A stretch of 28,623 bases of DNA from a virus. Location: IMG/VR virus record IMGVR_UViG_3300042860_001262, positions 1 through 28,623 of that record. One strand, written 5' to 3'. Positions 13,412 through 17,118 of this stretch are shown here, one piece after another. A program made the position numbers and the translations under genes. The notes under the pieces were generated by a model. It had not been told where the DNA came from. It did no database searches and saw nothing but the letters and a program-made list of their open reading frames with translations. Position 1 is the first letter of the stretch. The number at the start of each line of letters is the position of its first letter.

Positions 13412-14143
13412 TTAAACCTCCGCAAATTGTTTTGCTGATTTTCCGTGGACGACAATGGCGATCGATGCTGCGCTTGGTTTTAAAGCGCCGTCACATGCTC
13501 CGCATGTGATGCATTGTTTTTTGTCGCCTCCCTCGGGGCTTGCTGGGCAAATTGCTTCGTTTTGAAGCTTGAGCGCCGATCCGATCGGAATAACGCGAAA
13601 GGTCCGCCAACCCATTGCGCGAGCGATGTCGCGATCGCTGATGCTATCGGCGCTTGCCATGCACAATTCGCGATGAGCTTGGGCGAATGGTTCGCGCCAT
13701 TGGTGGGTGTATCCCGTCCAATCGCTGGCAAGCTCAAGCAAATCGAGCCAATTTTCGGCCGGGATCATGGCGGGGTCGCCATAGGCGCCAAGCCTAATTT
13801 TTCGACCCTTGAGCCAAAGCGCTGCAAACTTTACGTTATGTGAAAAATCAGGGTATGAGCCACGCTCGAAAGCTTTAAAAACTGCGTTAACGCTTTTGGA
13901 GTAATCAACGTAGCATGTGCGCTTTTGGCTTTCATTGCCACGATGCACACAATCGCCACAAATGCTTTTATCATTGCCAGTATTAACGGCGGTTATAGGA
14001 TTAACGTCCGATCTGATGATATAAGTTTGGACCATGTTCCCGGTTTTGACATTGCTAGACTCAAAAACCGCGATCCCGACAATGGGCGCTTGATCGATTG
14101 GCGAGAATCCGCGATAAAAAACAAATCCGTTTGGCTTGCGCAT
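13412..14143 (-). CDS. Cys-rich conserved phage protein, function unknown
   Basis: This 243-aa protein starts at ATG 14143, with GGAG eight bases upstream on the minus strand; an in-frame start at 14236 lacks such a site. The N-terminus MRKPNGFVFYRGFSPIDQAP leads to a segment resembling a beta domain, then CGDCVHRG ... RTCYVD (two close Cys clusters, about residues 62-79), a helical centre with WLDLLELASDWTGYTHQWR, and a second Cys cluster near the C-terminus (CPASPEGG, CITCGACDGA) before SIAIVVHG. The Cys pairs probably bind zinc or an Fe-S cluster. I recognise the general pattern from other phage and plasmid proteins but know no function. It is the only sizeable gene on the minus strand. 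Confidence 0.78.
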   Translation of the reverse strand: MRKPNGFVFYRGFSPIDQAPIVGIAVFESSNVKTGNMVQTYIIRSDVNPITAVNTGNDKSICGDCVHRGNESQKRTCYVDYSKSVNAVFKAFERGSYPDFSHNVKFAALWLKGRKIRLGAYGDPAMIPAENWLDLLELASDWTGYTHQWREPFAQAHRELCMASADSISDRDIARAMGWRTFRVIPIGSALKLQNEAICPASPEGGDKKQCITCGACDGALKPSAASIAIVVHGKSAKQFAEV

Positions 14144-14249
14144 GATATTTACTCCGTTTTGATTGATTGCGACAAGCAAAACAATAGCATGGGCTTGCAT
14201 TGATCGATTGACCGTTAGTCGGAAAATTTCAACCATTGAAGGGTTTTAT
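14144..14249. promoter_or_regulatory. Divergent intergenic region between the Cys-rich gene and terS
   Basis: These 106 bases separate two divergent genes and must hold promoters in both directions, unless transcription of terS comes from far upstream. I find no clear -35/-10 pair on either strand. The region contains TCGATTGACCGT (14204-14215), whose exact inverted copy is found beyond terS at 14742-14753. Confidence 0.4.
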
Positions 14250-14666
14250 ATGGCGGGGCAACCACAAAAGCGCGCAGCGCTTGCGGTTATTGAGAAAGTA
14301 GGCGAGGAGGAGATTCTTGAGCGAATAAGCGCTGGCGAAAGCGTGCGAGCCATTGCTGAGAGCATTGGAGTAAAGCAAGGGCATTTGAATAGGTGGCTCC
14401 TCGCTCCGGAGCGCAGCGCTCAGTACGCACGCGCACGCGAGGAGCGCGCCTCGGCGCTGGCAGAGGAGGCGCTGACGATCGCCGACGAGGCGAAGGACGA
14501 TCCTAGACTGCGCGTTGATACGCGCAAATGGTTTGCTGCGCGCCTTGATCCGCGATCATGGGCGGAGAATCGCGCGCCAGTCGTGGCGATCAACATAGAC
14601 TCGCAAGCATGGACGGCGATTAAGCAAGCTGAATCGCTGACAATTGATGCAGTGCAGCATGATTGA
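14250..14666 (+). CDS. terS: Terminase small subunit
   Basis: This 138-aa protein starts at ATG 14250 behind GAAGGG; the longer frame starting at 14163 has no ribosome site. The N-terminal half is a helix-turn-helix (EEEILERISAGESVRAIAESIGVKQGHLNRWLL, about 20-55), the middle is a charged helix (RAREERASALAEEALTIADEA), and KDDPRLRVDTRKWFAARLDPRSWAEN matches the oligomerisation region of Sf6-like small terminases (RVDTRKW...LxPxxY/W). It recognises the packaging start and loads DNA onto the large terminase. Unusually, a recombinase gene and 366 non-coding bases separate it from terL. A general DNA-binding regulator is the less likely alternative. Confidence 0.82.
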   Translation: MAGQPQKRAALAVIEKVGEEEILERISAGESVRAIAESIGVKQGHLNRWLLAPERSAQYARAREERASALAEEALTIADEAKDDPRLRVDTRKWFAARLDPRSWAENRAPVVAINIDSQAWTAIKQAESLTIDAVQHD

Positions 14667-14691
14667 ACGCGTATTAATCGCTTTACCAAGC

Positions 14692-14705
14692 GCGACAATT
14701 GTCGC
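14692..14705. promoter_or_regulatory. 14-bp perfect palindrome
   Basis: GCGACAATTGTCGC is self-complementary over all 14 bases and lies 26 bases after the terS stop. Related GACAAT sequences occur on both sides (near 14638 and 14722). A dimeric regulator or recombinase could bind here. Confidence 0.45.
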
Positions 14706-14752
14706 CCAAAGGCGCAAAAGCTGACAATCTAGCGGGTTTCGACGGTCAATCG

Positions 14753-14815
14753 AGAATCATTCGCGCCCTCGATTGACTTGAAATTAAGAATCATTCGCAT
14801 TTGATAATCGTTTTG
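14753..14815 (-). repeat. AGAATCATTCGC repeats, related to the 17-bp iterons
   Basis: AGAATCATTCGC is present at 14753-14764 and 14787-14798, 34 (two times 17) bases apart, with a degraded copy ATAATCGTTTTG at 14804, 17 bases further. Its reverse complement GCGAATGATTCT matches 11 of 12 bases of the unit at 12981 and 10 of 12 of those at 12964 and 12998. This looks like the same binding element as in the 12947-13014 array, in opposite orientation. Confidence 0.5.
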
Positions 14816-14833
14816 ACCCCCCTGGCGCGATTT

Positions 14834-14929
14834 GGGCGGGGCGGCTTTGCCGCGGTGCTCCACACGCGCCAACTTATGCTTCGCATACCTGGCCGCGCTA
14901 ATCGCATACCTGGCCGCGCCAACCCGCCC
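14834..14929 (+). ncRNA. Candidate structured element with 21-bp tandem duplication
   Basis: GGGCGGG (14834-14840) can pair with CCCGCCC (14923-14929), enclosing hairpins GCGGC-TTT-GCCGC (14841-14853) and TATGC-TTC-GCATA (around 14876-14888). A 21-base unit starting TCGCATACCTGGCCGCGC is present twice in a row (14881-14901 and 14902-14922, one difference). This could be a structured RNA, or DNA-level structure in a packaging or recombination site. Only fold potential is seen. Confidence 0.3.
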
Positions 14930-14993
14930 CCACCCACCTTTCATCGCTCCGACGAACGGCCCTCCAAAAAAATTTCACAAGTGAGCAAAACAC

Positions 14994-15016
14994 TGTTACG
15001 CTTGCAACAAGTAACA
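14994..15016. promoter_or_regulatory. Inverted repeat just upstream of the recombinase gene
   Basis: TGTTA-CG-CTTG-CAA-CAAG-TAACA forms nine base pairs of inverted repeat with a 2-base interruption on one side. It ends 16 bases before the recombinase ATG, next to its GGGGAA ribosome site. It could be an operator for self-regulation or half of a recombination site. Confidence 0.4.
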
Positions 15017-15032
15017 AACACAGGGGAACGAG

Positions 15033-15713
15033 ATGGCGATTTATGGTTATGCAAGGGTCAGCACGCAAGAGCAAGTGGATAACACGTCACTGGCCGAGCA
15101 GATCAGAAAGGTTCAGGGATTGGCGTTGATTCGTGGCGAGGATGTGGCTGAAGTGTTTACGGATGAGGGTGTGAGCGGGTCCGTGCAACTTGCCAAGCGT
15201 GATGCGGGTTCGCGTTTAGTGGCGGTTTTGCAGCCAGGCGATGTGGTGGTGATGACGCAATTGGATCGTGCGTTTCGTGACACGGTTGACGCGTTAACCA
15301 TGGCCGAGGCTTGGAAGGCGCAGGGTGTGAAGATGATTGTGTTGGCGTTAGGCACTGACCCGGTGAACAATGGGTCGAGTTGGTCTGAGTTTTTCTTTAC
15401 GCTTATGGCGGCAGTGGCTAGGCTTGAGCGGCGCAGGATTGCCGAGCGTATGGCTGACGGGAGAAAGAGTAAGGCGCAGGCTGGTGGTTGGATTGGCGGT
15501 CATGTACCGTTTGGTTATCGTAAGGATGGTGATGGGAAGTCCGCCAAGCTTGTGCAGGATGAATCGACCTATCCGATTTTGATGTTTATGGTGGGCAAGG
15601 CTAAGGAGCGCAAGAGCTATCGCAAGATTGCTGAGATGGTGAATGGTCAGTTTGGTATGGCGGTGACGCATACGTTGGTGCATCGCGCGGTGGCAAGTTA
15701 TGAACACGCCTAA
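15033..15713 (+). CDS. Serine recombinase (resolvase/invertase family)
   Basis: A 226-aa protein from ATG 15033 (GGGGAA upstream). The catalytic domain has YGYARVST with the nucleophile Ser10, EVFTDEGVSGSVQLAKR, VVMTQLDRAFRD (the conserved LDRxxRD motif) and EFFFTLMAAVARLERRRIAERMADGR (long E helix). After it comes GGHVPFGYRKD, the start of the segment seen in larger serine recombinases, then a short domain with ERKSYRKIAEMVNGQFGMAVTHTLVHRAV, a helix-turn-helix for DNA binding. It is longer than simple resolvases (about 185) but far shorter than integrase-type enzymes (over 450). It could invert, resolve or integrate DNA. Its position between terS and terL is unusual. The start of terL overlaps its end by 14 bases. 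Confidence 0.9.
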   Translation: MAIYGYARVSTQEQVDNTSLAEQIRKVQGLALIRGEDVAEVFTDEGVSGSVQLAKRDAGSRLVAVLQPGDVVVMTQLDRAFRDTVDALTMAEAWKAQGVKMIVLALGTDPVNNGSSWSEFFFTLMAAVARLERRRIAERMADGRKSKAQAGGWIGGHVPFGYRKDGDGKSAKLVQDESTYPILMFMVGKAKERKSYRKIAEMVNGQFGMAVTHTLVHRAVASYEHA

Positions 15714-17118
15714 TAACGAAATCTTTAAGCGTTATCTTGAGTTGGTTCGCCGTTACCGGCCCAACGCGCCGTTGTTTGTGCGCGAGGTGCTAGGGGTTGA
15801 TCCTGACCCTTGGCAGATTGAGTTCTTGGAGGCTATATCCCGCGGTGAGCGCAAGATTAGCGTGCGCTCCGGCCACGGTGTGGGTAAGTCCACGGTGGCT
15901 TCTTGGGCGATGATTTGGTACATGCTTACGCGCGGTCCCGCCAAGATTGTGGTGACGGCGCCGACCTCAAGCCAGTTGTACGACGCATTGTTTGCCGAGC
16001 TAAAGCGTTGGGTGAAAGAGTTGCCAAATGCTTGGGGTGATCGATTGGAGGTAAAGACTGATCGCATCGAGATGCGTGCGGCGCCTCAAGAGTCGTTCAT
16101 CTCCGCCCGTACATCGCGTGCCGAGCAACCTGAAGCGTTGCAGGGTGTGCATTCGGACCATGTGATGCTTGTGGCGGATGAAGCTTCAGGCATTCCTGAG
16201 TCCGTGTTTGAGGCGGCGGCGGGGTCCATGTCAGGGCATAACGCTGTGACGATTTTGTTGGGGAACCCAACGAAGTCCAGCGGTTTTTTCTTTGATACGC
16301 ATAACCGGTTGAAGGATGAGTGGTGGACACGCCGCGTGTCCTGCTATGACTCCAAGCGTGTGAGCGATGCCTACATCAAGGATATGGCGTCAAGGTATGG
16401 CGAAGAGTCCAATGCTTTTCGTGTTCGCGTGTTGGGTGAGTTTCCCCGCACCGATGACGATACCTTGATTGGCGTTGAACTGGTTGATAGCGCGTTTCAC
16501 CGTGATGTTGAAACGACGGATACGCAAACGGTGTGGGGGTTGGATGTGGCGCGATTTGGTACGGATGCCACAGCGTTGGCAAAGCGCAAGGGTAATGCGG
16601 TGACCGAAATACGCAAGTGGCGTGGGTTGGATTTGATGCAGACCACGGGCGCGGTGGTCGCTGAATACGAGGCCATGAAGCCCGAAGACAGGCCCGTTGA
16701 AATCCTTGTTGATTCGATTGGCTTGGGGGCCGGAGTTGTGGACCGATTGCGCGAATTGAATCTGCCTGCGCGTGGGATTAACGTGGCTGAGTCTCCCGCC
16801 ATGGGAACAATTTATGTGAACTTGCGTGCCGAGCTATGGGGCAAGATGAAAGCCTGGCTGGAAAAGCGCGATTGCAAGATTCCTAAAGATGAGTCGCTTT
16901 TGGCGGAGTTAGTTTCGCCGCGCTATTCGTTTAATAGCAACGGGAAGATGAAGCTGGAGAGCAAAGACGAGATGCGAAAGCGCGGGATTGGATCGCCTGA
17001 CATGGCTGACGCTTTGGCGTTGACCTTTGCCAGCGATGCAGGAACAGCGTTGTACGGTAAGGCTTACAACTCGCAGTGGGGTAAGCCGATTAAAAGAAAC
17101 TTGAGAGCAGTTGTTTAA
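15700..17118 (+). CDS. terL: Terminase large subunit (ATPase and nuclease)
   Basis: This 472-aa protein starts at ATG 15700, 14 bases inside the end of the recombinase gene. The ATPase domain has an N-terminal WQIEFLEAISRGERKISVR adenine/Q-like segment, Walker A SGHGVGKST (57-65) and Walker B VMLVADEASG (Asp-Glu). The C-terminal RNase H-like nuclease has WGLDVARFGTDATAL, EILVDSIGLGAGVVDRL and SPDMADALALTF, each with the metal-binding Asp. Length and order match terminase large subunits that pump DNA through the portal and cut it. It pairs with terS upstream and the portal downstream. Confidence 0.95.
   Translation: MNTPNNEIFKRYLELVRRYRPNAPLFVREVLGVDPDPWQIEFLEAISRGERKISVRSGHGVGKSTVASWAMIWYMLTRGPAKIVVTAPTSSQLYDALFAELKRWVKELPNAWGDRLEVKTDRIEMRAAPQESFISARTSRAEQPEALQGVHSDHVMLVADEASGIPESVFEAAAGSMSGHNAVTILLGNPTKSSGFFFDTHNRLKDEWWTRRVSCYDSKRVSDAYIKDMASRYGEESNAFRVRVLGEFPRTDDDTLIGVELVDSAFHRDVETTDTQTVWGLDVARFGTDATALAKRKGNAVTEIRKWRGLDLMQTTGAVVAEYEAMKPEDRPVEILVDSIGLGAGVVDRLRELNLPARGINVAESPAMGTIYVNLRAELWGKMKAWLEKRDCKIPKDESLLAELVSPRYSFNSNGKMKLESKDEMRKRGIGSPDMADALALTFASDAGTALYGKAYNSQWGKPIKRNLRAVV

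Follow-up and report, generated by a model that had tools for sequence, protein, structure and literature searches.

The window, that is, the whole stretch of DNA analyzed here, is a 28,623-base virus record in which a gene for a serine recombinase (rec) lies between the genes for the small (terS) and large (terL) terminase subunits. The features of the locus are listed below; A/B denotes a group of relatives defined in the next section of the text.

14250-14666, plus strand: terS, small terminase subunit, 138 aa (Pfam Sf6_terminase, E 1.4e-19; PHROG 1482, E 2.9e-20)
14817-14841, plus strand: C-run/G-run hairpin, predicted mark of the packaged-DNA end (124 of 136 loci, plus phiM5)
14842-14852, no strand assigned: mini-hairpin CGGC-TTT-GCCG, one of 77 TTC/TTT-loop hairpins in 54 spacers
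14876-14886, no strand assigned: mini-hairpin ATGC-TTC-GCAT, the sole exact copy in the window and the commonest hairpin type in the set
14949-14959, no strand assigned: CCG-N5-CGG element, operator-like, conserved upstream of rec
14966-14975, plus strand: A/T tract AAAAAAATTT, UP-element-like, the only such tract in the window
14994-15014, no strand assigned: conserved block TGTTACGCTTGCAACAAGTAA, candidate recombinase site or operator, in 24 of 24 A/B leaders and single-copy in the window
15033-15713, plus strand: rec, serine recombinase, 226 aa (Pfam Resolvase PF00239, E 2.4e-31, residues 3-153)
15700-17118, plus strand: terL, large terminase subunit, 472 aa (PHROG 2, phrog_2, E 4.6e-46)

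The first-pass annotation had placed a 226-aa serine recombinase between the two terminase genes and had it overlapping terL. The matches to PF00239, Sf6_terminase and phrog_2 bear this out, and the overlap of rec and terL is 14 nt. The spacer between terS and rec (14667-15032, 366 nt) carries, in this order, the C-run/G-run hairpin, the TTC/TTT-loop mini-hairpins, the CCG-N5-CGG element, the A/T tract and the conserved block, after which rec begins. The portal encoded in the window is of the SU10 type (Pfam match). A gp88-like gene (phrog_2554, E 1.8e-76; 13412-14236, minus strand) precedes terS in many A/B phages, and it had no match in C phages.

The search of IMG/VR viral contigs with three recombinase queries gave 149 loci in all, a count of related contigs and not of independent events. 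Type A/B accounts for 46 of them, with recombinases 88-100% identical to that of the window (partial copies aside); the query L060 brought in 49 loci, called type C, and a query from MW202879 another 54, called type D. The recombinases of C and D have 35-39% identity to the window protein. Of the 149 loci, 123 had enough flank upstream (>1000 nt), and terS was upstream of rec in all 123 (A/B 42/42, C 42/42, D 39/39); terL was likewise downstream of rec in 123 of the 123 loci with enough flank on that side (A/B 43/43, C 45/45, D 35/35). The recombinase gene abuts terL in A, B, and C (hit-to-hit gap of -10 to 35 nt), and in group D the two genes stand 236-3964 nt apart; in the 19 loci examined, the sequence between them consists mostly of consecutive small ORFs on the same strand. 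This hypervariable run of 0.2-4 kb (L175-L225) mostly opens with ORFs of 78 aa and 57 aa, and nine Pfam families were matched among 54 of the small ORFs scanned. Group C (L060-L107) has a 27-aa ORF, resembling a single membrane helix, directly before rec, and the stop codon of this ORF overlaps the beginning of rec. Exactly one PF00239 match was present in every one of the 13 relative records examined, and the tyrosine integrase family PF00589 was absent from all 13, which leaves rec as the only site-specific recombinase found in these records.

Our results show that rec is a constant part of the packaging module of one clade of uncultivated phages. Its sequence is under strong purifying selection, with a median dN/dS of 0.067 and a maximum of 0.107 (405 pairs from 33 distinct A/B genes). 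The allele in the slot has nevertheless changed. In the recombinase tree, A/B form one clade (support 100/100) and C and D another (100/99), with about 36% identity between the two clades, whereas the TerL tree, whose bootstrap had not settled, mixes A/B and C (four changes each, at least two forced by supported branches) and rejects C and D as a single clade (p-AU 0.017). Since the C recombinases are sister to those of D, yet C TerL lies near A/B TerL, one recombinase allele has given way to another within a single slot, with the function kept. The A/B recombinases group with one plasmid and one chromosomal sequence (support 85/82). A separate recruitment of the A/B gene from plasmids was considered and set aside, as a single clade of all phage recombinases was not rejected (p-AU 0.095, with ten long-branch rows left out before the test).

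It had been suggested that the recombinase gene moved into the locus. The universal terS-rec-terL order speaks against a recent insertion, and the suggestion holds only at a deeper level, where recombinase alleles were replaced in place. This displacement would also suit a mobile or selfish gene that settled in the terminase gap and is kept by its own spread. Outside the clade the gap does vary: in two contigs with TerL about 70% identical, where the recombinase search gave no match, terS abuts terL (L111) or the gap is occupied by an endonuclease VII-like gene (L110, 3674-4237; PHROG 1035, E 5.4e-18). We consider a selfish gene quite unlikely, as rec is kept in 123 of 123 loci with its active-site residues intact and at the low dN/dS given above, and neither terminal repeats nor a target-site pattern was seen round it.

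The protein belongs to the serine recombinase superfamily, having a Resolvase catalytic domain with the active-site Ser and Arg; R8, S10, R79, and R82 are invariant in two alignments (11 and 23 proteins). In the predicted model (mean pLDDT 78.8, pTM 0.47, residues 106-119 poorly predicted), the catalytic domain (residues 1-139) aligned with the TP901-1 integrase (3bvp; Z 15.2, rmsd 4.5, 128 residues). The C-terminal part aligned with the recombinase domain of two integrases, that of Listeria (residues 138-226 on 4kis_B 134-221; Z 5.9, rmsd 2.6, 85 residues) and Bxb1 (residues 140-226 on 9iu8_A; Z 6.3, 85 residues); Z values under 8 are modest, and the match with Z near 6 spans the whole recombinase domain. 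The top Foldseek match was the Bxb1 integrase, across both domains, and the structural alignment (VIA) re-examined Foldseek's own matches only. The model suggests that Rec consists of the catalytic domain and the first DNA-binding (recombinase) domain of the large serine integrases. The zinc ribbon and coiled coil were not found, as the protein ends at 226 aa inside the recombinase-like domain and the predicted structure has no further domain; the protein contains no cysteine. The HTH_7 family gave no match in the window recombinase at E 0.01, nor in one C or D member at E 1. As modeled, Rec is neither a classical HTH_7 resolvase nor a large serine integrase. Its best PHROG was PHROG 95 'integrase' (E 2.4e-48), and it also matched PHROG 125 'DNA invertase' (E 5.8e-33).

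Related recombinases occur outside phages. The best plasmid relatives are 37-44% identical over 88-100% of the recombinase, and full-length relatives are found on a Methylobacterium plasmid (58 kb), in Vibrio parahaemolyticus (10 kb), in Gluconobacter (8.9 kb), and in a Methylobacterium bullatum record (2.8 Mb); the Vibrio and Gluconobacter plasmids also carry a ParA gene. In genome_contigs, 234 recombinase relatives were confirmed, with a best identity of 40%. None of the 80 recombinase loci fetched from that set had a TerL, portal, or capsid of the window's phage family, and none of 17 pattern matches was confirmed as a TerL relative in a scan that detects close relatives only; within this coverage, no prophage was found in genome_contigs. 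The families of ParA, ParB, and repressors were absent from 41 ORFs of the complete relative G005, a set that excluded terL and one structural ORF. Since neither ParA nor a repressor was found among these ORFs, a plasmid-prophage stage is not supported.

These searches bear on the idea that rec is a compact integrase of a temperate phage, which would recombine a leader attP with an attB of the host. Site-specific integration was the first role put forward for this gene, and several observations are in its favor: Bxb1 is the best Foldseek match, the C-terminal domain matches the integrase recombinase domain, the integrase PHROG is the best one, and no other integrase was found. The excerpt of PMC9144972 on phage JC1 describes a 551-aa serine integrase with attP 41 bp upstream of its gene, a placement similar to that of the conserved block. 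According to an excerpt of PMC3783163, it is the zinc ribbon with the coiled coil, following the recombinase domain, that gives integrases the choice of attP x attB, and the predicted structure of Rec has neither. In addition, no TerL relative was confirmed in genome_contigs, where the scan reached close relatives only; the best recombinases there are 40% identical, with no family TerL, portal, or capsid at any of the 80 loci, and the 41 G005 ORFs include no repressor family. Integration is not supported by these data, and we judge it unlikely.

The leader of rec is rich in small hairpins. Hairpins with a 4-bp stem and a TTC or TTT loop numbered 77 in 54 distinct spacers, against 4.0 expected from shuffled sequences. 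At least one was present in 51 of the 54 spacers, and their density was 3.7 per kb, against 0.22-0.30 per kb genome-wide. The stems vary with matching changes on both sides (ATGC, GTGC, GCAC, GCGC, CGGC), and many of these hairpins read GCGAAGC on the opposite strand. The sequence GCGAAGC is a very stable DNA mini-hairpin.

The CCG-N5-CGG element also stands before terS (14212-14222, one mismatch) and, in several relatives, before a ruvC-like gene. It was considered as the crossover site and rejected on this ground: an element that precedes several separate genes reads better as an operator, and it may be that of a phage regulator. An A/T tract similar to that of the window is found upstream of rec in G001-G006, G009, and MW202879. 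In group D the tract is followed by a sigma70-like promoter (TTGACA-16-CATAAT); a search of the plus strand of the window gave none ahead of rec. The tract, an element shared with other genes, and the 14-nt overlap with terL would all be consistent with a Rec whose chief role is now to regulate the rec-terL transcript by binding DNA, or to assist in packaging, with recombination a minor activity. We regard this as improbable, because all 23 phage proteins aligned (23 of 23) keep the catalytic Ser10 and the arginines.

The inverted repeat noted earlier just upstream of rec (TGTTAC-N11-GTAACA, 14994-15016) proved to be a conserved sequence and not a conserved palindrome. The 21-bp sequence TGTTACGCTTGCAMCAAGYAA underlying it is invariant in 24 of 24 distinct A/B leaders. 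Pairing of the arms across the same leaders is 6/6 in four, 5/6 in eight, 4/6 in four, and 3/6 in eight, so that the dyad is perfect in only 4 of 24 and mostly incidental. Its occurrence is at the level of chance: inverted repeats with 6-bp arms and a spacer of 3-20 nt were seen six times in the 366-nt spacer, against 2.32 expected (P 0.094), and the chance of at least one is P 0.79. A 23-bp dyad as the site common to A and C (TGTTAC-N11-GTAACA and TGTAAA-N11-TTTACA) was discarded, as it is not kept in the B leaders or in those of the L074/L086 type. The leaders of A, C, and D have no obvious dyad in common, and for this reason the recombination site stays a candidate.

The conserved block has no second copy in the window or in G001 (a 38.7-kb A-type relative) with up to five mismatches. 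This concerns most directly the proposal of a DNA invertase that switches tail genes. Small serine recombinases of the size of Rec include invertases, and the match to PHROG 125 agrees with such an activity. Against it stand the single copy of the leader block in the window and G001 and a gene order that is constant in every locus with enough flank. As the window is without part of the tail region, the inversion test rests on G001. Tail-gene inversion, another of the roles first suggested, finds no support here and is in our view highly improbable.

Swapping of terS driven by the recombinase was rejected as well, as the spacer, the CCG elements, and the start and tail of terS stay alike in two aligned pairs. 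Among the terS alleles of the window, L005, L008, and L009 (47% vs. 99% identical), the differences are confined to a stretch that begins near codon 5 and finishes some 30 codons short of the stop codon. This domain mosaic looks like homologous exchange within terS and not like cassette exchange at leader sites; the pattern would fit a packaging signal inside terS.

In 124 of 136 loci (A/B 43/43, C 37/48, D 44/45), the C-run/G-run hairpin is found no more than 500 nt ahead of rec. Some of the C loci with no hairpin match have an extra terS-rec insert or a shorter C-run. The relation of this hairpin to the ends of the packaged DNA comes from phiM5, whose TerL is 57% identical to that of the window. 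In phiM5, with its ends used as deposited, an annotated direct terminal repeat of 357 bp lies directly before terL, and C-run/G-run hairpins at 315 (315-344) and 43963 close both copies of the repeat. The right-end ORF that spans the start of the repeat is terS (PHROG, E 3.4e-6; Pfam gave nothing useful). The excerpt of PMC10386132 that covers phiM5 makes no mention of a recombinase. Because a hairpin like that of the window closes the phiM5 terminal repeat, the packaged end in the window is probably between terS and rec, at the hairpin, a point that the first-pass annotation did not raise.

The position of rec beside this probable end of the packaged DNA leads us to propose, tentatively, that Rec is a resolvase-like enzyme that reduces redundant or multimeric phage DNA to monomer circles. 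We hold this to be a real possibility and the most likely use of the gene. A terminal repeat or a dimer would supply two direct copies of a site in the leader region, which Rec would recombine within the phage DNA to give monomer circles; the conserved block in the rec leader is the putative site. Rec is predicted to lack the parts that set direction in integrases, and the constant gene order, the invariant catalytic residues, the purifying selection, the single recombinase found in each of 13 records, the in-place exchange of alleles, and the full-length relatives on plasmids, two of them with ParA, are in keeping with such a reaction. Given the location next to the predicted packaging end, Rec may be used either immediately after entry, to close the linear genome as Cre-lox does in P1, or ahead of packaging, to resolve dimers. 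Both the reaction and its timing are deduced from comparative sequence data, which showed no recombination products, no dimers or deletions, and no second site. Of the three roles offered by the first-pass annotation, the resolution of dimers or of terminal redundancy is the best fit, with the reservation that the conserved block is single-copy, so that two sites would come together only in a dimer or in terminally redundant DNA. If the window is like phiM5, its terminal repeat would stop some 10-15 nt past the hairpin and short of the block at 14994, which may thus not be duplicated in virion DNA; this counts against use on entry.

A more far-reaching version of this proposal, which we regard as doubtful, is that a mini integrase, reduced to the catalytic and recombinase domains and encoded exactly at the packaged terminus, circularizes the incoming linear genome with no need for host RecA. 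It would represent a new class of genome closing, in which a distant serine recombinase took over the place of the gene without loss of the function or of the terminus hairpin, and rec would perhaps be the first complete gene of the left end. In virulent-looking phages whose linear DNA is redundant, the closing of the genome is generally attributed to homologous recombination by host or phage. For 80alpha, an excerpt of PMC7290940 states that terminal redundancy is needed for circularization and that the enzyme is unknown. The literature searched gave no account of a recombinase gene in the terS-terL gap, and nothing that joins a serine resolvase, terminase, and phage circularization. If the proposed resolution to monomer circles is true, these phages would have, inside the terminase module, a dedicated serine enzyme that is the counterpart of Cre-lox in P1. 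Rec would also be a natural, compact recombinase of 226 aa with a DNA-binding domain of the integrase type, on which the part played by the zinc ribbon and coiled coil in setting direction could be studied. Two distant recombinase clades have replaced one another in a single slot, and this opens site specificity to direct testing.

The system can be compared with several known ones. It differs from the Gin and Hin invertases in that no second inverted site was found, with a leader block that is single-copy in the window and G001. The large serine integrases (Bxb1, TP901-1, and Listeria A118/LI) share the catalytic and recombinase domains of the Rec model; Rec, in contrast, stops after the recombinase domain, and no integrated prophage was found. 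The Tn3 and gamma-delta resolvases resemble Rec in their catalytic domain and similar length, in a conserved leader block before the gene, and in the full-length relatives on plasmids. The C-terminal domain of Rec, however, resembles the integrase recombinase domain and not HTH_7, and res subsites were not identified: the 21-bp block is conserved in A/B, but the dyad is not.

Phage P1 encodes the site-specific recombination system Cre-loxP near its packaging start; the system circularizes DNA with terminal redundancy and also resolves dimers. Its recombinase, Cre, is of the tyrosine type and acts at a known site of 34 bp. The likeness is in a phage-coded recombinase near a packaging end, which is predicted here. 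The differences are that Rec is a serine enzyme encoded between terS and terL, its site is a candidate only, no plasmid-prophage genes were seen, and the predicted terminus is fixed and not headful. A further counterpart is the 'gamma delta resolvase' of the Manatee Spring phage (MW202879), a circular relative of 36.5 kb, which is 35% identical to Rec and occupies the same place after terS; it differs in belonging to the other clade (D), where small genes take up 0.2-4 kb after rec and ahead of terL.
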